From: a virus
Direction: 5' to 3' (one strand)
Virus record (IMG/VR): IMGVR_UViG_3300032241_002225
Span: 1-21,958 of that record
Length of the DNA: 21,958 bases
The notes beneath the pieces were generated by a model. It saw nothing but the letters and a program-made list of their open reading frames with translations. It was not told the DNA's origin and made no database searches. Positions 1,793 through 17,920 of the stretch are shown here, piece after piece (position 1 is the stretch's first letter; each line of letters opens with the position of its first letter). The translations under genes and the position numbers were made by a program.

Positions 1793-2025
1793 CCAAGCTG
1801 GCGCAATATATGCGCACCAGGCAACGCCCTGGCCGCTAAGTGATTGAAATTAAACGATATGCAAATCGAGCCAATGGGCCCCCTAGCGCCAATCTAGGTA
1901 TTCTTCCGTATTGCCGAATCGCCCTGGCCCTTATATCATCGGTTACGCGGTACCCCCCGTTGGGCCTCGAGAAAAATAATTCCGGGAGCGTCCCTTGCCT
2001 CCCCCCCCAGAATCGAAATTATAAA

Positions 2026-2053
2026 TTGACGCCATCCGATCGGATGGTATCTT
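2026..2053 (+). promoter_or_regulatory. Rightward promoter with a 16-bp palindromic operator as its spacer
   Basis: TTGACG (2026-2031) and TATCTT (2048-2053) are separated by 16 bp that form one perfect palindrome, CCATCCGATCGGATGG (2032-2047). A dimeric repressor bound there would cover both hexamers. The ATG of the XF1762-like gene (2062) lies eight bases past the -10 box, so the transcript would be leaderless or nearly so. Confidence 0.55.
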
Positions 2054-2061
2054 GCCGTCAC

Positions 2062-2508
2062 ATGTCGCGCCTCAATCTCATGCCGTTGAAATTTGTAGAC
2101 GCTTGTTCGTTTGTAGATGCCAACCATCGGCATCACCGGGCACCGCAGGGTCACAAGTTCTCGATCGGAGCGGCGCGCGACGGGTCGTTGGTTGGGGTGA
2201 TTATTGTTGGTCGACCGGTGGCTCGCCGTCTGGATGATGGTTTGACGTTGGAGGTGACGAGGCTCTGCACGGACGGAACAAAGAATGCTTGTTCATTTTT
2301 GTACGGTGCGGCAGCCCGGGCAGCCAAGGCTTTGGGGTATTGCCGGATCGGAACATACGTGCTGGAAAGTGAGCCTGGAACAACTCTGGCGGCGGCGGGT
2401 TGGAAACGCATTCGAACGACCCCGGGGCAATCCTGGTCAGTACCGTCGAGGACGAGAGAAGATACGCATCCAATAGGTGCAAAAGTCTATTACTTGAAGG
2501 AACTATGA
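2062..2508 (+). CDS. XF1762-like protein, possible GNAT-type fold (148 aa)
   Basis: The product carries the signature of the phage XF1762 family: an N-terminal DACSFVDANHRHHRAPQGHK block, then VGRPVARRLDDGLTLEVTRL, the block CTDGTKNACSFLYGAAARAA, and LESEPGTTLAAAGW near residues 110-125. The family is often described as acetyltransferase-like; substrate and role are unknown. ATG 2062 is chosen because the homologous region begins just after it; an upstream in-frame ATG at 2044 lies inside the promoter palindrome and 5' of the predicted transcription start. No good ribosome binding site precedes 2062, which fits a leaderless message. The stop overlaps the next start as ATGATG. Confidence 0.8.
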   Translation: MSRLNLMPLKFVDACSFVDANHRHHRAPQGHKFSIGAARDGSLVGVIIVGRPVARRLDDGLTLEVTRLCTDGTKNACSFLYGAAARAAKALGYCRIGTYVLESEPGTTLAAAGWKRIRTTPGQSWSVPSRTREDTHPIGAKVYYLKEL

Positions 2509-2678: not shown

Positions 2679-2726
2679 TTGACGCAACGATCCGGCAATG
2701 ATACCACCCGGGTAAAGGAGATCAAC

Positions 2727-3209
2727 ATGGACGACACCGAGCAGCAGCCGCAGGACACCACGCAGGACACCGCTCCCGCCGCCGAAGCCGACACCGCGCC
2801 GCAGCAGGACACCGCTCCCGCCGCCGACACCGCGCCGCAGCAGGACACCGCTCCCGCCGCCGACACCGCGCCGCAGCAGGACACCGCTCCCGCCGCCGAA
2901 GCCGACACCGCTCCCGCCGCCGACATCGCGCCGCAGCAGGACACCGCTCCCGCCGCCGAAGCCGACACCGCGCCGCAGCAGGACACCGCTCCCGCCGCCG
3001 AAGCCGACACCGCGCAGGACACCGTCAGCACCGACACACCGGTGCTCGACGCGATCGGTATTCCCGAGGAAGCGATTGCCCGGGCATTTGACGAGATCCG
3101 GGAACTTCTGGTCGGCCTCGAGAACCCGACGTGGATGCTCGAAGCGGCCAAGCAGCAGCTCGAGCTGTCGGCAACGAACGTGTTTCGTCACATCCAGCAG
3201 GCTGTGTGA
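2727..3209 (+). CDS. Acidic repeat protein with C-terminal helical domain (160 aa)
   Basis: ATG 2727 follows AAAGGAG at ideal spacing. Residues about 12-98 are a low-complexity array of DTAPAAEADTAPQQ-type units, strongly acidic and Ala/Pro-rich, probably an extended linker. Residues about 105-160 form a compact region (PVLDAIGIPEEAIARAFDEI onward) that reads as two or three helices. Its stop overlaps the next start as TGATG (3207-3211), coupling it to the Acb2-like gene. The C-terminal part could be a diverged helical hairpin related to the Acb2-like neighbour, but similarity by eye is faint. No function is established. The DNA repeats (about 2765-3015) make the length prone to change. Confidence 0.75.
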   Translation: MDDTEQQPQDTTQDTAPAAEADTAPQQDTAPAADTAPQQDTAPAADTAPQQDTAPAAEADTAPAADIAPQQDTAPAAEADTAPQQDTAPAAEADTAQDTVSTDTPVLDAIGIPEEAIARAFDEIRELLVGLENPTWMLEAAKQQLELSATNVFRHIQQAV

Positions 3210-4195: not shown

Positions 4196-7132
4196 GTGAG
4201 CAAACGCAAATGGTTGCCCCTGTTCGAAGAATTCGTGGGTGACCTGCGGATCTCGTCCAAGGAAGAAACGAGCCGTGACGGTCGTGGCACGTCGCTCGTG
4301 TTGTGGGAAAGTCAGCATCGCTTCCTGAAGGAGGTCGCTGCCGGGCTCGACCAGGGGCAGAAGATCTTCAAGGTGTTGAAGAGCCGGCAGCTTGGCGTCA
4401 CGACCGTGTCGCTGGCTGTCGACCTGTTCTGGGTGGCAATGCATCCGGGCATCACGATGGCGATCGTGACCGACACGGAAGGCAACCGCGAGAAGAACCG
4501 CACCCTGCTGGCGCAATACGTGAAGAGCTTTCCCGAGGGGTACTTCGGGGAGTTCAACATCGTCCAGAACAACCGCCAAATGATGCGGTTCAGCAATGGC
4601 AGCCGGTTCGACTTCAAGGTTGCGGGCACGAAGGACAAGGGCACGGCATGGGCCGAAGGTGAAGGGTACGCCGCAGCGCACATCACCGAACTTGCGAACT
4701 TCGGAAGCCCTGACGGCCTGCGGTCGTTCGAGGAAGCGTTCGCGCAGAACAACCCCGACAGCATCTACATTTATGAGAGTCCGCTTGCGCTCGACACACC
4801 GATCCCGACGCCGACCGGGTGGACGACCATGGGTGACATTCAGACCGGTGACTGGGTGTTTGGTGAAGACGGCAAGGCGGTAAAGGTTGCCGGGACGAGC
4901 CCCGTATTCTTGGATCGAAAGTGCTATCGGATCGAGTTCAGCAACGGCGACAGCATCGTGGCCGATTCCGGGCACAAGTGGTTTGTTGAAGAGGCTCGGC
5001 ACCCGACCAATCCGCAATGGAAAGAAAAGGTCGTTACGACGGCGGAACTCAATCCGGTCAAGCACATCATCCGGTTGGGTGAGCCGCTGGACTTGCCTGA
5101 CGTGGACTTGCCGATCGACCCGTATCTGGTCGGAGCCTGGTTGGGTGATGGTGCCACGGCCGAGCCACGGATCACCGCAAGCGAAGACGACCTGCCAGAG
5201 ATGGTACGGCTGCTGGAACAGCGCGGGAATCAGATCGGCACAATCACACGCTCGAAAGACCGAGCACCAATGTTTCACGTCACGGGCATCCGCGACAAGT
5301 TTATTGCGCTGGGTCTGCGAGGCAACAAGCACATCCCGGAACAGTATCTCAGGGCGTCGGAGCGTCAGCGTCGGGAACTTCTTGCCGGTCTGATGGACAC
5401 GGACGGCTCAATCCACAAGACCAACTGGCAATGCTGTTTCGCTTCGATCAACATGCGACTGATCGACGATGTGAGCGAACTGCTCTCTTCGCTTGGTATC
5501 AAACATGTCGTCAGCGTAAACTCTGAAGACGGCAAGCAGAGACTGTTCCCGGGGGGCAACACGTCGACTTGCAAAAAGTCGTGGCGCATTTTGTTTTCGG
5601 AACACCCGGATCGACAGGTTTTCAATCTTCCGCGCAAGCGTACCATTCACCAATCGCGCACCACGAAATTTGGGTGGCGCAAGGCAAAGTGTGTTCGCAT
5701 TCGGTCAATCACGGAAGTTCCCAGCGTTCCGGTGAAATGTATTGCCGTGGACAGCCCGACGCATTTGTTCCTTGCCGGGCGCACAATGATCCCGACGCAC
5801 AACACCGCCAAAGGCCATAACATCTGGTACGACACCTGGATGGCCGGGTTCAAGGATTTGCACAAGCAGCGGTCATTCTTCGTCGGGTGGTGGGCGAACC
5901 CCAACAACGCGTTCAAGAAAAGTGACCCGCGGTTCGCTGAGTTCGGGCTCGAGAAGCCGACGCGCGAAGAGCAGGATCTGATCGACACGGTGAAGACGCA
6001 GCACGATTACGCTGTGTCGGCCGAGCAGCTCGCATGGTACCGGTACAGGCAGTCGAGTGCGGACACGACCGCCGACGGCACGCTTGAGCAGAACCAGCCG
6101 TGGACGGCCGGCCAGGCGTTCATCATGACCGGGCAGTCGTTCTTCAACGTGAGGACGCTGACCAAGGACACGCAGCAGATCATCGAGGCCCAGCAGCAGG
6201 AAGGCGGCGGGGGCTACGGCTGGGTCGGGTACAACTATGACTTCGGTTTGTCGTTTTTCGACATGGAGATGGTCGAGGCGACGGACGATGACGACCCGAA
6301 CGACATCGAGCTGCGGGTCTGGGAGCCTCCGAAGAAGGAAGGTCGCTACGTGATCGGCTGCGACCCGGCGTACGGGCGCAACGAGCACAAGGACCGGTCC
6401 GCGATCAGCGTGTGGCGCTGCTATGCCGACAAACTGGTGCAGGTGGCGGAATATGCCAGTTACCTGACCGAGGTCGACAAGGTGGCCTGGGTGCTGGCGC
6501 ATATCGCCGGCTGCTACACGGACTGCATGGTGAACCTGGACATCGGCGGGCCCGGGCGCATGATCATGCACGAGTGGAAGCATCTCGAGCAGATGATCAA
6601 TTCCGAGGCATACGCCGATCGGGCGAAGAAGGGTGGCTGGGAAGATGCCCTGAGCAACGCCCGCTGGTACCTCTACAACAAGCCCGACAGCATGGGCGCC
6701 GGGTATGTGTACAACTTCGAGGCGTCGTTCCGCACCAAGCAGGAGCTGATGCACGGCCTGCGCGGGTCGTATATCACCCGTGAGATGCTCGTGCGATCGC
6801 TGCCGCTGCTGCGCGAGATGGGTAACGTGGTGCAGGACGGGTCGTCGATTGAGGCGCCGGAGAGCAGCAACCCGGAGAAGAAGGACGACCGGGTGTTCTC
6901 GGCCGGCCTCGCGGTGCGTGCATGGCACAACTGGCGCCGGTCGGAAATGCTTGCCGAGAACCTGACGTACGAGCGGGTCATGGACGAAGAGACGGGCGCG
7001 ATCACGCAGCAGGCCCGGTCGCTCAACGGCCTGGTTGCTCGCTATTTCGCGTGGCAGCAGGCGCTCGACGATGAAGACGAATACGTGGCCGACAATCGCC
7101 CACAATGGAAGACAGACAGAGGATTGGCATGA
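4196..7132 (+). CDS. terL: Terminase large subunit (TerL) with in-frame intein (978 aa precursor, 637 aa spliced)
   Basis: TerL is the ATP-driven motor and nuclease that packages DNA through the portal. The N-terminal ATPase shows a deviant Walker A (KSRQLGVTT, residues 62-70), a Walker-B-like HITELANF (162-169) and the coupling motif ES/TAKG, split by the intein between S195 and T537. The C-terminal RNase H-like nuclease carries GCDPAYGRNEHKDRSAISVW with D723, VNLDIGGPG with D782, and KKDDRVFSAG with D897/D898. The spliced length suits a TerL. GTG 4196 is chosen over internal ATGs because AGAGGA precedes it at good spacing. The stop overlaps the next start (ATGA). No TerS-like gene is adjacent. 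Confidence 0.93.
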   Translation: MSKRKWLPLFEEFVGDLRISSKEETSRDGRGTSLVLWESQHRFLKEVAAGLDQGQKIFKVLKSRQLGVTTVSLAVDLFWVAMHPGITMAIVTDTEGNREKNRTLLAQYVKSFPEGYFGEFNIVQNNRQMMRFSNGSRFDFKVAGTKDKGTAWAEGEGYAAAHITELANFGSPDGLRSFEEAFAQNNPDSIYIYESPLALDTPIPTPTGWTTMGDIQTGDWVFGEDGKAVKVAGTSPVFLDRKCYRIEFSNGDSIVADSGHKWFVEEARHPTNPQWKEKVVTTAELNPVKHIIRLGEPLDLPDVDLPIDPYLVGAWLGDGATAEPRITASEDDLPEMVRLLEQRGNQIGTITRSKDRAPMFHVTGIRDKFIALGLRGNKHIPEQYLRASERQRRELLAGLMDTDGSIHKTNWQCCFASINMRLIDDVSELLSSLGIKHVVSVNSEDGKQRLFPGGNTSTCKKSWRILFSEHPDRQVFNLPRKRTIHQSRTTKFGWRKAKCVRIRSITEVPSVPVKCIAVDSPTHLFLAGRTMIPTHNTAKGHNIWYDTWMAGFKDLHKQRSFFVGWWANPNNAFKKSDPRFAEFGLEKPTREEQDLIDTVKTQHDYAVSAEQLAWYRYRQSSADTTADGTLEQNQPWTAGQAFIMTGQSFFNVRTLTKDTQQIIEAQQQEGGGGYGWVGYNYDFGLSFFDMEMVEATDDDDPNDIELRVWEPPKKEGRYVIGCDPAYGRNEHKDRSAISVWRCYADKLVQVAEYASYLTEVDKVAWVLAHIAGCYTDCMVNLDIGGPGRMIMHEWKHLEQMINSEAYADRAKKGGWEDALSNARWYLYNKPDSMGAGYVYNFEASFRTKQELMHGLRGSYITREMLVRSLPLLREMGNVVQDGSSIEAPESSNPEKKDDRVFSAGLAVRAWHNWRRSEMLAENLTYERVMDEETGAITQQARSLNGLVARYFAWQQALDDEDEYVADNRPQWKTDRGLA
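4781..5803 (+). mobile_element. Class 3-type intein with LAGLIDADG homing endonuclease in TerL (341 aa)
   Basis: The intein spans precursor residues P196-N536. It begins PLALDTPIPTPTGWTTMGDI, so position 1 is proline, not Cys or Ser. Block B is ADSGHKWF (H260, W262), block F VKCIAVDSPTHLFLAG (C515), block G PTHN (T534, H535, N536), and +1 is T537. W262, C515 and T534 together make the noncontiguous W-C-T motif that defines class 3 inteins, in which the block F cysteine starts splicing. The endonuclease motifs are LVGAWLGDG (311-319, D318) and LAGLMDTDG (396-404, D401), both with catalytic aspartates, so homing activity may be intact. The site interrupts the conserved ES/TAKG coupling motif, and only splicing restores TerL. 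Confidence 0.93.
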
Positions 7133-8246: not shown

Positions 8247-8418
8247 CACCCACCTCGATCGTATATTCGCGCCGATCCGCTGAGTGGTGTACGAGGATGT
8301 CGGGTCGATCCGGTTCGGCCGTAGGCTTACACCAACAATTCTCGTACGTATGATCGCGCAGGTCAGACATTGGCATGGTGTGCCAATGTCCGTCGACCCA
8401 CTCTACATACCACCCCAT
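8236..8418 (-). CDS. Conserved phage hypothetical protein after the portal gene (60 aa)
   Basis: ATG 8418 shares bases with the portal stop (TGATG), so translation is coupled; a GTG at 8421 is also possible. The product holds DLRDHTYENCWCKPTAEPDR and VHHSADRRE, a pattern (H, C-x-C-x-P, then V-H-x-S-x-D-x-R-E) recurring in small phage proteins of unknown function. It completes the inverted two-gene block. Confidence 0.75.
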   Translation of the reverse strand: MGWYVEWVDGHWHTMPMSDLRDHTYENCWCKPTAEPDRPDILVHHSADRREYTIEVGVTQ

Positions 8419-10169
8419 CACTTCTTTGGCTTACCCTGAGCCTTTGCGTGCGCCTCGGCTTCGTGTGCTTTGGTGGCAGCGATTTCGCGGCGCATGATAC
8501 CGGCGATGAGACCCTCGGGATCGGGCGCGTCGGTATGCTCGACAACGTCTTCGGTGCTGGCGGCACGGATCTTGAACAGATCGAAGATGAGGTTCTTCGC
8601 ATCGGCGGCGAACGCTGGCGACGACGAATGCGAGTCAACGGACAGTTTCATGCTGTCATCGAGATCGGCAAGCTGGAACGGAACGCACACAAGGCCCGGC
8701 GCGGGCGGCACGATCAGCGGATTGTTCTGGATGCCCTCAAGACCGGCCTGGTCCTGAGGAACCCACGCCAACAGCTTCTGGTCGACGTGCGCTTTACCAA
8801 GTTCCATCATCAGCGTGCCGAGCGCGGCGATGTCGCGCTCGATCAGCAGTGCGCGGTCCTTGAACCGCGGCGAGAACATGCGAACCAGCGTCTCGGCATG
8901 GCCCTGGCCACGCACGCCGGCTTCACCGCGACCCTTGGCGATCGGCGGCAGCCCGCCCATTTCGTCGAACATGCGCTCGAACTCGTGCAGCGACCCCCAC
9001 AGATCCTGCGGAACTGCCGGTGCTTCGACCTCGATCTTGGCCTGCGGGTTGTTGTCGACCCAATAGCCGCCTGGCTTGTTGAAGCGGGCAAGCGCCTGCT
9101 GGTTCACGCCGGTCGAGCCCACGAACTTCTTCGGCGGGTCTTCCTGCAGGCGCAGAAGTTTGTTGGTGCCGTTGATGCGGCTGTTGATCGCTTCCTGCAG
9201 CATGGCCACGTTGACGATCTCGCTGCGACCCCAGAAATACTGGTCGATGCGATTGGGCGAAAACTCGACATATGGGTGGCGCCCGACCAGGTCATCGTGC
9301 GGCCGCAGCGTTGCCGGGTTCCACGCCAGCGCGTTGAACCGGGTGTACTTGCCCATGATGAGCATATCTTCGCCAATGAGCTGGAAAGTCGCCCAGTCGG
9401 CGCGTTCGTCATCCCACACCCACAGTTCGTCCAGCCGCATGACGCTGCCTTCCATGCGGGTCGAGAACATGGGGTCGGCCGAACTCATCCAGTCGACCAT
9501 GCCGCGCGAGGACGAATTGCCCTGACCCGCAGGCTGAAACGGCTGCATGCCACCGGTGGTCACGGTCATGCCGGCTGCCGGCCGGTCCTTCTGCGCCATG
9601 TACCGCTTGGCACGCTTGCGGAGAATTTCCTTGTCCGGGTGATTCCAGATCATGCGCTCGAACTGGTAGGTCGTGATCCACATCGTGTGGACGAACGCTT
9701 CCATGTCCTCGTCGAGCGAGTCATGGTTCTCGCGAAGCACACCCATGTCGTCGGGCTGAACAAGATCCGTGCAAAACGACTTGCGCTTGTAGCCGCCCTT
9801 GAGAAATGTCTTCCCTTTGATCAGTGACCAGAGCACCGCTTCGGAAATTCGCGTGTCGCTGTTCGAGCTGCGCGCCGCTGAACGCAGGTAGTTCGCAACA
9901 GAACGCCCCTTGGCTTCTTCGAGAATGTTTGGAAGGTCAGGGTCCGAAACCTTGAAACGCAGCGAGATCGGGGAATACAGAAGCGATTCCAGATCATCCA
10001 GATACGCAAACGTTTTGTTGTAAATGGCGGACTCAGTCGGGTCGTCGGCACCAAACAAGAAGTAATTCTTGAAGTATTCATAGCGCATACGACGATCTGA
10101 CTGGGAGACCAGACACTCATCGACCAGCTCACGAACAAACCGCTCAAGGTTTCGCTTGGGTATTCTCAT
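8418..10169 (-). CDS. Portal protein (583 aa), encoded on the opposite strand to the other head genes
   Basis: The portal is the dodecameric ring at the capsid vertex that docks TerL and the tail. The sequence fits podovirus-type portals: an N-terminal helical region (residues 1-60), a wing region with SEAVLWSLIKGKTFLKGGYK (109-128), the motif HPYVEFSPNRIDQYFWGRSE (298-317) followed by helices ending in RINGTN (331-336), and the clip/crown helices with GHAETLVRMFSPRFKDRALL (423-442). The C-terminus is charged and Ala-rich. ATG 10169 has a modest AGGA ribosome binding site. Its minus orientation between plus-strand terL and scaffold is unusual. Assignment is by motif and context. Confidence 0.85.
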   Translation of the reverse strand: MRIPKRNLERFVRELVDECLVSQSDRRMRYEYFKNYFLFGADDPTESAIYNKTFAYLDDLESLLYSPISLRFKVSDPDLPNILEEAKGRSVANYLRSAARSSNSDTRISEAVLWSLIKGKTFLKGGYKRKSFCTDLVQPDDMGVLRENHDSLDEDMEAFVHTMWITTYQFERMIWNHPDKEILRKRAKRYMAQKDRPAAGMTVTTGGMQPFQPAGQGNSSSRGMVDWMSSADPMFSTRMEGSVMRLDELWVWDDERADWATFQLIGEDMLIMGKYTRFNALAWNPATLRPHDDLVGRHPYVEFSPNRIDQYFWGRSEIVNVAMLQEAINSRINGTNKLLRLQEDPPKKFVGSTGVNQQALARFNKPGGYWVDNNPQAKIEVEAPAVPQDLWGSLHEFERMFDEMGGLPPIAKGRGEAGVRGQGHAETLVRMFSPRFKDRALLIERDIAALGTLMMELGKAHVDQKLLAWVPQDQAGLEGIQNNPLIVPPAPGLVCVPFQLADLDDSMKLSVDSHSSSPAFAADAKNLIFDLFKIRAASTEDVVEHTDAPDPEGLIAGIMRREIAATKAHEAEAHAKAQGKPKK

Positions 10170-12751: not shown

Positions 12752-13831
12752 ATGGGTCTTTTCTCTGGTCCCGGTCTTACGCCCACCCTCAAGGGCGCAG
12801 TGACCAACGAAATCACGCTGAATGGCGGTTCCGTCACTCTGCTCCAGCCCGCCGGCTGGTATTACCTCGGTCTCGGCAAGTACACGACGCTTCAGCAGTA
12901 CGACCCGATCACGCAGATCTGGCGCACCATCGGTGCGGGCAGTGACGGCGGCGCCGATCAGTACATCTACTCGGACGGCGTCAACTACCGTCTGGCCAAC
13001 CTGACCGGTTGCGTTGTGGGTGCTCTGCTCACCACGGCCGGCTCGGGCTACACCAGCGCCCCGACCGTGACGGCTTCGGCCGGTGGGTCGATCTGGCGTG
13101 CGATTGTTGGCGGCGCGGTGAACACCACCGTCACTGTCACCAACAGCGGCAGCAGCTATACCTACGCTCCGGTTGTCGAATTTTCGGCTCCCCCGGCTGG
13201 CGGTATCCAGGCTGAAGGTTACGCCACCCTGTCGAGCGGCGTGATCAGCATCACCGTCACCAACCAGGGTGCCGGCTATGTGACCGCTCCGACCGTGGTG
13301 CTGTCGAACGATCCGCGTGAAGGTCTGAACGGTCTGTCGCAGGGTTCCGGTGCGTCCGCTGTCGCCACCTTGACCGGCGCTGGCACCATCACCGGCCTGC
13401 TCTGCCTGGATCCGGGCAGCTCGGTCACTTCGCTGCCGACCCTGTCCTTCTCGGGCGGCGGCGGGTCGAGCGCCGCAGCGACCGCGATCTGGAACGCGAC
13501 CATCACCGGTATCGCTGTCACCACGGCCGGCGCTGGCCTGTCGGGCAGCTACGTTCGCGTCACGGCGGAAGACAACTTCCCGACCACTGCCGCGGCGTAC
13601 ACCAACACGACCACGCAGTCGAACCTGGTTCGCACTCGCTCGGCCGACATCCGCGCAGCGATCAGCTCGGGCGGCGTGACGGCAACCGGCGCGGTGATCT
13701 ACGACGGCGGTATCTACACCTCGGCTCCCACGCCGCTGGTGATTCCGAGCGCCTCGGTTGTGACCACGGCTCCGGTCGTGACTTTCACGCTGGGCGGCGC
13801 CACCGACACGAGCTACCTGACCCAGGTCTAA
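12752..13831 (+). CDS. Capsid-associated protein with Gly-Tyr-x-x-x-Pro repeats (359 aa)
   Basis: GGAGTAACTGCA precedes ATG 12752. The N-terminus (PAGWYYLGLGKYTTLQQYDP, then WRTIGAG) is followed by beta-rich repeats at about residues 88-110, 127-146, 164-185, 214-236 and 251 onward, with the core GSGYTSAPTV. The same core forms eight copies in the tail protein at 15362-17920. Placement right after the major capsid gene and ahead of a terminator suggests an abundant structural protein, such as a head decoration or fibre-like protein; the exact role is inference. Confidence 0.75.
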   Translation: MGLFSGPGLTPTLKGAVTNEITLNGGSVTLLQPAGWYYLGLGKYTTLQQYDPITQIWRTIGAGSDGGADQYIYSDGVNYRLANLTGCVVGALLTTAGSGYTSAPTVTASAGGSIWRAIVGGAVNTTVTVTNSGSSYTYAPVVEFSAPPAGGIQAEGYATLSSGVISITVTNQGAGYVTAPTVVLSNDPREGLNGLSQGSGASAVATLTGAGTITGLLCLDPGSSVTSLPTLSFSGGGGSSAAATAIWNATITGIAVTTAGAGLSGSYVRVTAEDNFPTTAAAYTNTTTQSNLVRTRSADIRAAISSGGVTATGAVIYDGGIYTSAPTPLVIPSASVVTTAPVVTFTLGGATDTSYLTQV

Positions 13832-14709: not shown

Positions 14710-15365
14710 TGGCATCGCAGCTCGACCCGTCCACTGTACTGTCGGCATCGCCGCTTCTCGCGCCTAGCGTGACGCCCGTACCTGTGGCGGCGGCACCTGC
14801 GGCACCGGCAGTGCCCGCAGATTATACGGCCAGGTTGATCGCTCAAGCCCAGCAGCAGTACCCGTTCATCAAGCAGTACAATCCGATGGTGGTGGTTTCG
14901 CCCCAGCCGGACGGAGACTATGCCGAAACGTGGCGCGCGGGCGAACCCGGGGGCGAAGGTGTCATGCGTCCGCAGAGCATTCCGCTTGACCGGGTGGGTA
15001 TCCAAGTGTTTCGCCCGGAGCAGTTCGGGCCACAAGATTTCGCTGGAGAGTTTCTCCATGTCGATCCCCGGGCCAATCAAGTTCGTTCAATGTTCATGCA
15101 AACTTTGTCGCCTGAACAATTGCAAAAAATACAAAACAGTTCCAAAGATTACCTACGCACGATAAATGATATCAAACCAGACATGCCACCTGAGGAAGCT
15201 CAAAAAATCAGGCAGCAAGCAACGCAAGATGCCATAGATTCCGCTTTTCGTGGATACACAGTGGGTCAGTGGCCTGCCGAAGCCAATGCTTCCATAGGAT
15301 ACACCCCCGAGCAGTTGCAACTGCTTGACGGGCTCAAGCGTTATATGACGACCGGAGCGCAATGA
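14709..15365 (+). CDS. Conserved phage hypothetical protein (218 aa)
   Basis: ATG 14709 overlaps the adaptor stop (TGATG). Residues 1-50 are Ala/Pro-rich; the centre has YNPMVVVSPQPDGDYAETWR and the segment PLDRVGIQVFRPEQFGPQDF then GEFLHVDPRAN. From memory similar proteins occur between adaptor and nozzle genes in podophages, without assigned function. The last third (about 15050-15340) is visibly more AT-rich with Lys/Ile codons, unlike the first two thirds, so it may be a recombinant segment. The stop overlaps the next ATG (ATGA). Confidence 0.75.
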   Translation: MASQLDPSTVLSASPLLAPSVTPVPVAAAPAAPAVPADYTARLIAQAQQQYPFIKQYNPMVVVSPQPDGDYAETWRAGEPGGEGVMRPQSIPLDRVGIQVFRPEQFGPQDFAGEFLHVDPRANQVRSMFMQTLSPEQLQKIQNSSKDYLRTINDIKPDMPPEEAQKIRQQATQDAIDSAFRGYTVGQWPAEANASIGYTPEQLQLLDGLKRYMTTGAQ

Positions 15366-17920
15366 TGGCAGGCCAAGGCGTCCGCAACCCGCAGCCGAAG
15401 TTCTTCTCGCCCTATCCGTTTGGCGGGATGAACCTGCTCGCCGCGCCGCCCAGCATCGGCGACAACGAGTTCCTGTGGGTCGAAAATTTCGTGCGCCTCG
15501 GCGACGGCAAGTACCGGACCGCCTGGGACATCGGCGCGGCACTCTACACTGTCACGGGCAGCGCGACGATCATCTATTTCGAGTTTTTCACGATCGCCAC
15601 AGCATATTACGTGGCCGTGTTCCTGAGCGACGGATCGGCCGTGCAGGTCGATATGAACGGCAATGTCACCCAGATCGGGCCCGCAGGCACGTTCTGGACC
15701 GCAGGCCTGTCCGAACTGCCGTGTGCCACCAACTGGGGCACACAGTTGCTGCTTATCGCCAGCAGGCTCAATCAGAACTCCTATTGGATCTGGGACGGCA
15801 ACCTGCTGTACACCGCCGGCACGGCTGCCGCGCAGGGCGTGCAAATTCAGTCGGGTGGCAACAATTACACCACCGTGCCCAACGTTGCGTCATACGGCGG
15901 CAGCGGATCGGGCATGACGTTTGCTGTCACGATCGACGGCGGACAAGTGTCGAACATTCAGATCACCAACCCCGGCAGCGGGTATCAGGTCGGTGACATC
16001 GTCCAGCTGGTGTTCGGCGGCGGCGGGTCAGATGGCAGTGCTGAACTGCAGGCGAGCATTTCGGCCGGCGGCGTTGCTGCTGTCGAAGTCACGTCCCCAG
16101 GATCTGGTTACACGTCGGCGCCGTCAGTCGTCTTTTCGGGCGGCGGCGGCGGCTCGGGCGCTGCGGGCACAGCAACGATCAGCGGCGGACAGGTCACAAG
16201 TGTCGCGATCACGTCGGCTGGCACCGGATATACCACAGCACCGGCGGTGAGTTTCACAGGCGGCAGCGGCTCGGGTGCCGGTGGCTATTCCGTGCTGCAG
16301 ACGGGCAGCGTCACAAGCGTCACGGTGGTGGATCCCGGAAGCGGTTTCACGAGTGCTCCAAGCATTTCGTTTGAAGGCGGCGGCGGCTCGGGCGCGACCG
16401 GGATTGTAACGCTGGTGGGTACGTCCATCCAGTCGATCAATGTGGTTGCGGCCGGCACCGGGTATCAGAAAGTGCCGACCATCGTCATCAGTGGCGGCGG
16501 CGGTGGTACGGGCGCGGCAGCCACCGCGGTGATCGCACAAGGTCAGGTGGTCGAGATCAATGTCACCAATCCTGGTTCAGGATACACGACACAGCCGCTG
16601 ATCTTCGTGCAGCCCGCAAACTACCAAACCAGCACCCAAGACACGGGTACGGGCGCGGCCGCGCAGGCTGTGCTGACACCGACCCAGATCAACACGGTCA
16701 CCATTTCTTCGGCCGGCAGAAATTACACCAGCGCCCCGACGGTGGTGGTGAACCCGGGCGGCAACAATGCCGCGTATGCCACAGTTGACCTGATGCCGTT
16801 CGGGATCAGCGGTGCTGCGATCCAGACCTATCAGCAGCGAGTGTGGATCGCAAACCCTGCGACCAACCCGAACCAGACGGTTCCGCCTGGTGGACAGTTC
16901 AACGTCAGTGCGCCAGGCTCGTTCATCGACTTTGCCACGTCGGACGGCGGGGTGTTGTTCACCAACAGCGACAACTTCCTGCAGACCAAATACACGGCGA
17001 TCCACCAGTCGAACGGGTATCTCTACATGTTGGGTGACGGCTCGGTGAGCATCATCTCGAGCGTGAACACCTCGGGCAACCCGTCGACCACCACGTTCAA
17101 CTATCAGAACGTCGACCCGCAGACCGGTGCCAAATTCCCCAACTCGGTGCAGGATTTCGGCAAGGACATCTTGTTCGCAAACGAGACCGGCGTCTTCGGC
17201 ATTTACGGCGGCAGCGCCACGCTGGCGTCGGCCAAATTGAACGATCTGTTCCTGACGCTCAACACCACGACCGGCGTGACGCCCAGCAGCGCATCGGCAA
17301 CGCTGTTCGATGTGAAGCACTATATGCTTCTGGCGACTGTCACCGACCCGGTGCTGCTGACGCCGCGGACGGTGCTGCTGACGTGGAACCAAAAGGACTG
17401 GACGATCCTGTCGCAGGCAGTGTCGTTCACATTCGTGGGCACGCAGAAGATCGCGTCGAAACTCTATGCCTGGGGCACGGACGGCACCAGCCTCTACCCG
17501 ATGTTCAACCAAGCGAGCAACACGCTCACGAAGCGCCTCGACAGCAAGATCTACGGCGGCGGCGGGTCGAACTGGGTGTTCAAGGACATCCAGTACATGT
17601 ACATGCAGGCGCAGGACCAATCCTCCGGGCAAGCGGGCGTTTCGTGGAATGTCGACCTTGTTGTGTCAGGTGTGACTCCGCAGCCGGCTGATCCTGACAT
17701 CTACATGACGCCAAACGCGGTGCTCCCGGGCACGCAGCTGTGGACATACACGGGTGCCTTTGCGGCACCACAGCCATACTGGCCGGTCTTTGCGACCCGC
17801 ACCGGCGGCATATCGTGTCTCAACGTCGGCGCCAGGTTCACGACGACCTCTCCCGATTTCATCCTCGCGGATTGGCGCATTTTGTATTACGATACCGACA
17901 CCTTCACGATGGGATCCTGA
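15362..17920 (+). CDS. Nozzle-like tail protein with eight inserted 40-aa repeats (852 aa)
   Basis: ATG 15362 or 15365. N-terminal residues 1-160 (FSPYPFGGMNLLAAPPSIGD, then FLWVENFVRLGDGKYRTAWD) and C-terminal residues 480-852 (NGYLYMLGDGSVSIISSVNT, FGKDILFANETGVFGIYGG) look like one beta-propeller protein of the podovirus nozzle type (P22 gp10-like). Between them lie eight repeats near residues 169, 208, 250, 290, 329, 368, 408 and 455, period about 40, with the core GSGYTSAPSVVFSGGGG. The tail nozzle plugs DNA and carries the tail tip. Assignment of the flanks is by overall look; the repeats are plain. Confidence 0.75.
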   Translation: MMAGQGVRNPQPKFFSPYPFGGMNLLAAPPSIGDNEFLWVENFVRLGDGKYRTAWDIGAALYTVTGSATIIYFEFFTIATAYYVAVFLSDGSAVQVDMNGNVTQIGPAGTFWTAGLSELPCATNWGTQLLLIASRLNQNSYWIWDGNLLYTAGTAAAQGVQIQSGGNNYTTVPNVASYGGSGSGMTFAVTIDGGQVSNIQITNPGSGYQVGDIVQLVFGGGGSDGSAELQASISAGGVAAVEVTSPGSGYTSAPSVVFSGGGGGSGAAGTATISGGQVTSVAITSAGTGYTTAPAVSFTGGSGSGAGGYSVLQTGSVTSVTVVDPGSGFTSAPSISFEGGGGSGATGIVTLVGTSIQSINVVAAGTGYQKVPTIVISGGGGGTGAAATAVIAQGQVVEINVTNPGSGYTTQPLIFVQPANYQTSTQDTGTGAAAQAVLTPTQINTVTISSAGRNYTSAPTVVVNPGGNNAAYATVDLMPFGISGAAIQTYQQRVWIANPATNPNQTVPPGGQFNVSAPGSFIDFATSDGGVLFTNSDNFLQTKYTAIHQSNGYLYMLGDGSVSIISSVNTSGNPSTTTFNYQNVDPQTGAKFPNSVQDFGKDILFANETGVFGIYGGSATLASAKLNDLFLTLNTTTGVTPSSASATLFDVKHYMLLATVTDPVLLTPRTVLLTWNQKDWTILSQAVSFTFVGTQKIASKLYAWGTDGTSLYPMFNQASNTLTKRLDSKIYGGGGSNWVFKDIQYMYMQAQDQSSGQAGVSWNVDLVVSGVTPQPADPDIYMTPNAVLPGTQLWTYTGAFAAPQPYWPVFATRTGGISCLNVGARFTTTSPDFILADWRILYYDTDTFTMGS

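Follow-up and report, generated by a model that had tools for sequence, protein, structure and literature searches.

The large terminase gene (terL) in the sequence studied here very probably carries a full-length, mobile class 3 intein in its ATPase coupling (C) motif, as judged from sequence comparison and structure prediction. The DNA analyzed, referred to as the window, is an IMG/VR virus record of 21,958 bases. The open reading frame at positions 4196-7132 on the plus strand translates into 978 residues, with the 341-residue intein inserted in frame. The features of the gene and of the intein are listed in Table 1.

Table 1. Features of the intein-containing terL gene in the window. A slash in a motif marks the insertion point.
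Feature	Position	Strand	Basis
TerL N-extein, 195 aa, GTG start, ATPase domain	4196..4780	+	ORF and translation
Walker A-like LKSRQLGVTT	4376-4405	+	assigned by eye
Walker B-like AHITE	4676-4690	+	assigned by eye
Class 3 intein (predicted), 341 codons, Pro1-Asn341, with LAGLIDADG endonuclease domain	4781..5803	+	empty-site comparison, phmmer, AlphaFold2
Intein residue 1, Pro, no nucleophile	4781..4783	+	translation; empty-site boundary
Block B His65 (B:10), Lys66, Trp67 (B:12)	4973..4981	+	aligned with 6rix, 6bs8
First LAGLIDADG motif LVGAWLGDG, residues 116-124, catalytic-position Asp123	5126..5152	+	alignment
Second LAGLIDADG motif LLAGLMDTDG, residues 200-209, Asp206 and Asp208	5378..5407	+	Pfam LAGLIDADG_3
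Cys320 (F:4), predicted to act as the initiating nucleophile and as the first branch point	5738..5740	+	aligned with 6rix, 6bs8
Thr339 (G:5), His340 (G:6), Asn341 (G:7)	5795..5803	+	conservation in relatives
TerL C-extein, 442 aa and stop, nuclease domain, begins with the +1 Thr of the coupling motif ES/TAKG	5804..7132	+	

The intein interval was translated without a stop into 341 residues that begin with P and end with THN. When the C-extein alone was searched against viral contigs, four close relatives were obtained. In one of them, L035 (the same contig as L002), the same intein was present and was 98% identical to that of the window. The other three, L036, L037, and L038, were intein-free, and their C-exteins were 85-87% identical to that of the window. 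The proteins of L036-L038 ran uninterrupted through NPDSIYIYES-TAKGHNIWYD, where the window encodes NPDSIYIYES-(P...THN)-TAKGHNIWYD, and the empty terL site of the L038 type encodes NPDSIYIYESTAKGHN. Both boundaries of the intein were fixed by this comparison, because the intein-free homologs read straight through ES/TA. The placement of the intein at 4781-5803, between S195 and T537, in an initial annotation of this DNA was confirmed exactly. Since S195 and T537 are adjacent in the empty allele, the spliced product would have 637 amino acids. This length had also been given in the initial annotation, and as a predicted product it agreed with the intein-free alleles L036-L038. The insertion had further been assigned to the ATPase coupling motif, and this was supported by sequence, structure prediction, and the empty-site comparison, with the motif itself assigned by eye.

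A similarity search of the intein with phmmer against solved structures matched the class 3 DnaB inteins 6rix and 6bs8 with E-values of 9.5e-33 and 3.5e-32 (about 1e-32). Two aligned stretches placed W67, C320, and T339 on the class 3 WCT residues of these structures. In TerL numbering, the three residues are W262, C515, and T534, which had been put forward earlier as the class 3 set; the alignment with 6rix and 6bs8 and the relatives of the intein agreed with this. Relatives were drawn from viral contigs, species genomes, and sequenced phages. The first set comprised 198 sequences, all of which had His at B:10 (198/198), Trp at B:12 (198/198), Cys at F:4 (198/198), and Asn at G:7 (198/198), while Thr at G:5 was found in 197/198 and His at G:6 in 194/198. 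Since the same columns were near-invariant in the 198 relatives, we concluded that the WCT pattern was not due to chance. For an enlarged, 95% non-redundant set of 282 class 3 relatives, the counts were 281/282 for W, 282/282 for C, and 280/282 for T. At B:7 the intein has Asp (D62), which was the commonest residue at this position in the relatives (162/198) and is known from functional class 3 inteins (PMC7891396).

The AlphaFold2 model of the intein had a pLDDT of 88.6. Its splicing domain superposed on 6bs8 with a Z-score of 24.3 and an rmsd of 1.0 Å over 126 residues (VIA-align), and the model matched full-length PI-SceI over approximately 320 residues with a Z-score of 27 (VIA-align). Model confidence and the superposition on 6bs8 support the presence of the HINT splicing fold. 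The residues of a class 3 intein were all found: Pro at position 1, Trp at B:12, Cys at F:4, Thr at G:5, His at B:10, a His-Asn end, and Thr as the +1 residue after the intein. The earlier assignment to class 3 is supported by the sequence, the predicted structure, and the empty-site comparison.

By homology to the class 3 pathway (PMC5222942, PMC4031507, PMC7664689, PMC7891396), Cys320, held together with His65 and Thr339, would attack the Ser195-Pro1 amide and give rise to a thioester-branched intermediate at block F. The N-extein would then pass from block F to Thr+1, Asn341 would cyclize after this transfer, and an O-to-N acyl shift would link ...IYIYES to TAKGH... in the mature TerL. The probability of a class 1 or class 2 mechanism is negligible, and nothing in its favor was found. 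Class 1 inteins need Cys, Ser, or Thr at position 1, and class 2 inteins have Ala1, Ser at G:6, Cys at +1, and Asp at F:4 (PMC4031507, PMC5222942). Class 1 was excluded because the first residue is Pro, and class 2 because of the residues at positions 1 (Pro), F:4 (Cys), G:6 (His), and +1 (Thr). It is also very improbable that the intein is degenerate and no longer splices, kept as a pseudogene because TerL is supplied otherwise. A precedent for an inactive class 3-like intein has been published with Arsp-FB24 Arth_1007 (PMC3196547), but Arth_1007 is without Cys at F:4 and His at B:10, both of which are present in the window intein. Moreover, the inteins of the window and of L035 differed in 20 synonymous versus 6 nonsynonymous codons, and the changes in the exteins were also mostly silent, which argues that the unspliced reading frame is under constraint. 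An unspliced insert of 341 residues in the coupling motif would also be expected to kill packaging. Splicing has been reported for five terminase inteins and cutting for two (PMC5050341).

The endonuclease domain of the intein has two LAGLIDADG motifs with acidic residues. The second motif matched Pfam LAGLIDADG_3 with 36.2 bits at a cut-off of 22.5, and both PF14528 and PF05204 were matched above cut-off. The model of the intein showed fold matches to PI-SceI and I-DmoI. As claimed in the initial annotation, both motifs keep their aspartates: D123, D206, and D208 are present and are conserved in most relatives (first-motif Asp in 173/198, D208 in 191/198). LAGLIDADG motifs were reported for 82.5% of 1701 class 3 inteins (PMC7891396). 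In a mixed infection, intein-free terL would be cleaved by this domain at the S/T site and would receive a copy of the intein.

Silent divergence between the window and L035 was much lower in the intein than in its surroundings. Only 13/170 four-fold degenerate sites (7.6%) differed in the intein, compared to 33/85 in the N-extein (Fisher p 4.5e-9) and 36/192 in the C-extein (p 0.003). Six other clearly shared coding stretches, including the exteins, showed 19-46% silent difference, and those other shared genes that were long enough to be informative 26-46% at four-fold sites; a shared fragment of 27 codons with zero differences was left out as too short. On the 5' side, divergence dropped at the intein boundary: the differing codons outside were -1, -4, and -9, and the first differing codon inside was about 15 codons into the intein. 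Since these 5' flank codons differ, no long co-conversion tract was visible on that flank. That silent sites in the intein have diverged so little is suggestive of recent homing or gene conversion, based on one pair, the window and L035, the one other phage found with the same intein allele. In this pair, the intein allele appears younger than the host genes, which is what homing would produce, and the intein is probably still mobile.

Two other explanations for the pattern were considered. Ordinary phage mosaicism, that is, block recombination rather than endonuclease-driven homing, could also lower the silent divergence of the intein. Identity fluctuates along the shared region, block values ranging between 0.53 and 0.98, and the C-extein, at 19%, likewise diverges somewhat less than the other genes, but the drop in divergence begins at the N-terminal intein boundary, and we regard mosaicism as a possible but rather doubtful cause. 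A splicing-competent class 3 intein that is inherited vertically and whose endonuclease no longer cuts is unlikely. The presence of LAGLIDADG motifs does not prove cutting activity, and around the insertion site the intein-free relatives match the window at just 36-38/50 bases. On the other hand, the intact aspartates argue against a dead endonuclease, and a silent divergence far lower in the intein than in its own exteins is contrary to strict vertical descent. With regard to recent homing, natural intein-free alleles are available for a homing test.

Several known inteins resemble that of the window. The class 3 DnaB inteins DnaBi1 of M. smegmatis (6bs8) and MchDnaB1 of M. chimaera (6rix/6riy) have the same WCT residues, His at B:10, and terminal Thr-His-Asn, and their splicing fold superposed on that of the window intein with an rmsd of 1.0-1.6 Å at 50% identity over about 126 residues. 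Both are mini-inteins of 139-146 residues in DnaB without an endonuclease, whereas the window intein lies in TerL and has LAGLIDADG motifs; MchDnaB1 begins with Ala instead of Pro. Class 3 was founded on the mycobacteriophage Bethlehem DnaB intein, which splices efficiently (PMC3196547) and differs from the window intein in gene and site. TerL of Stenotrophomonas phage SOVA965 also harbors a full-length Pro1 WCT class 3 intein with LAGLIDADG motifs. It is 38% identical to the window intein and is inserted in an unrelated TerL family at the Walker A-like site GNGK/S, in contrast to ES/TA in the window. For TerL of phiCbK, a Pro1 intein of 341 residues, P131-N471, was annotated (Gill et al. 2012, PMC3556154). 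This intein (L082, 461-1483) resembles that of the window in Pro1, Cys at F:4, and length; however, as read from its sequence, it has Phe at B:12 and Val at G:5 and not the Trp and Thr of the WCT set. It is located at a P-loop-type GHAK/S site and is about 33% identical to the window intein over blocks A and B. The intein TerL6-f of mycobacteriophage Chandler gp6 interrupts the ATPase coupling (C) motif of a TerL from a different terminase family and splices in the MIG reporter (PMC5050341); the window intein, at ES/TAKG with the motif assigned by eye, may be inserted at a corresponding place.

The same ES/TA coupling-motif site is occupied by a Pro1 class 3 intein in TerL of IMGVR_UViG_3300045020_000286 (L090). 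The two inteins are 46-47% identical, while the C-exteins share just 31% identity. Since L090 shares both the site and a Pro1 intein, the ES/TA site has retained or acquired inteins of this type over a long period. Pro1 class 3 inteins were also observed in P22-like portal proteins near RMYNYW in plus-strand ORFs of L083, L084, L085, L087, and L091, with membership of this family tested in the case of L083, L084, and L087. The portal-gene inteins of these three are near relatives of the window intein (about 50% identical), and portal-gene inteins include its nearest relatives outside L002. They show that such inteins have spread among packaging-machinery genes. A self-composed probe of 36 residues for block A, which was not taken from a database, matched class 3 inteins only in a general way. 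A candidate in phage AFIS from the search with the DnaB extein was rejected, as it proved to be a neighboring HNH gene and not an intein.

The initial annotation had regarded Pro1 as making this intein a useful test case for class 3 chemistry. The intein is neither unique nor needed in this respect. In the enlarged set of 282, which favors relatives of Pro1 queries, 193 inteins began with Ala, 53 with Pro, and 11 with Gly, so that Pro was the second commonest first residue among the class 3 relatives sampled. The species-genome subset had Pro1 in 6/76, and with SOVA965 TerL it occurs in a sequenced isolate. According to Gill et al. 2012 (PMC3556154), functional Pro1 inteins were described by 2010 in the paper defining class 3, which is that of the Bethlehem DnaB intein. 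Pro1 and the coupling-motif location are both already known, and a claim of novelty fails. The intein belongs to a well-described kind, and the hint of recent homing is interesting but unproven. It extends the list of known Pro1 class 3 inteins by one that has firm boundaries and was probably mobile in the recent past. Its main use is comparative, as the 53 Pro1 class 3 inteins are material for asking what decides between Ala and Pro at position 1.

With Pro1, the scissile bond would be a tertiary Xaa-Pro amide. In the enlarged set, Ala1 followed Lys at -1 (P-loop GK/) in 178/193 cases and Pro1 followed Lys in 5/53. The residue before Ala1 was typically Lys, and before Pro1 it was A, G, E, S, and others. 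In a tree of the class 3 set, at least nine state changes in residue 1 were forced by well-supported branches. Essentially all informative pairs among 9 independent pairs on well-supported branches went in the expected direction, and the sign test on these pairs was borderline (median p 0.06, range 0.03-0.38). Much of the association of Ala1 with Lys may reflect shared descent. Pro1 showed no consistent signal with the +1 residue. The association between the -1 and the first residue is a lead and not a result. We consider only tentatively, and with more doubt than belief, that the first residue of class 3 inteins is tuned to the preceding host residue, with Pro1 as an adaptation to non-P-loop sites and not a neutral variant.

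Its sequence marks the host gene as a divergent terL. The C-extein was 31-32% identical in tblastn to the annotated terminase large subunits MW202753 and MW202825 of environmental phages and weakly matched the terminase family phrog_2 (E 8.8e-5), which is the basis for this assignment; we call it divergent because no Pfam terminase match was found for the host protein. The N part of an intein-free homolog matched the phrog_2 terminase large subunit with E 3e-5. Besides terL, the record has genes for a major head protein and for tail-like structural proteins, as well as one for a Mom-like DNA modification protein, and this gene content is what one would expect of a tailed phage. No tRNA or Rfam features were found within the 21,958-base window. 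The Mom-like family protein (phrog_1384, E 1.1e-36) is encoded upstream of terL at 1840-2508 (+). A 583-aa protein at 8418-10169 (-) gave a weak SU10 portal match below cut-off (E 7.9e-4); should this protein be the portal, its strand is opposite to that of terL and the head gene. Several repeats were also observed. Positions 1-123, at the extreme contig end, hold 4.2 copies of a perfect 29-bp tandem repeat, which may be an assembly end effect, and positions 1673-1732 hold TGCCG repeated 12 times with 96% matching. A small ORF at 2679-3209 (+) consists mostly of PAADTAPQQDT repeats, with tandem units of 36-60 bp at 2762-3024. Gly-rich repeats (GSGYTSAPTV-like) at 12752-13831 and 15362-17920 are common to two structural ORFs, which match many tail/structural PHROGs.
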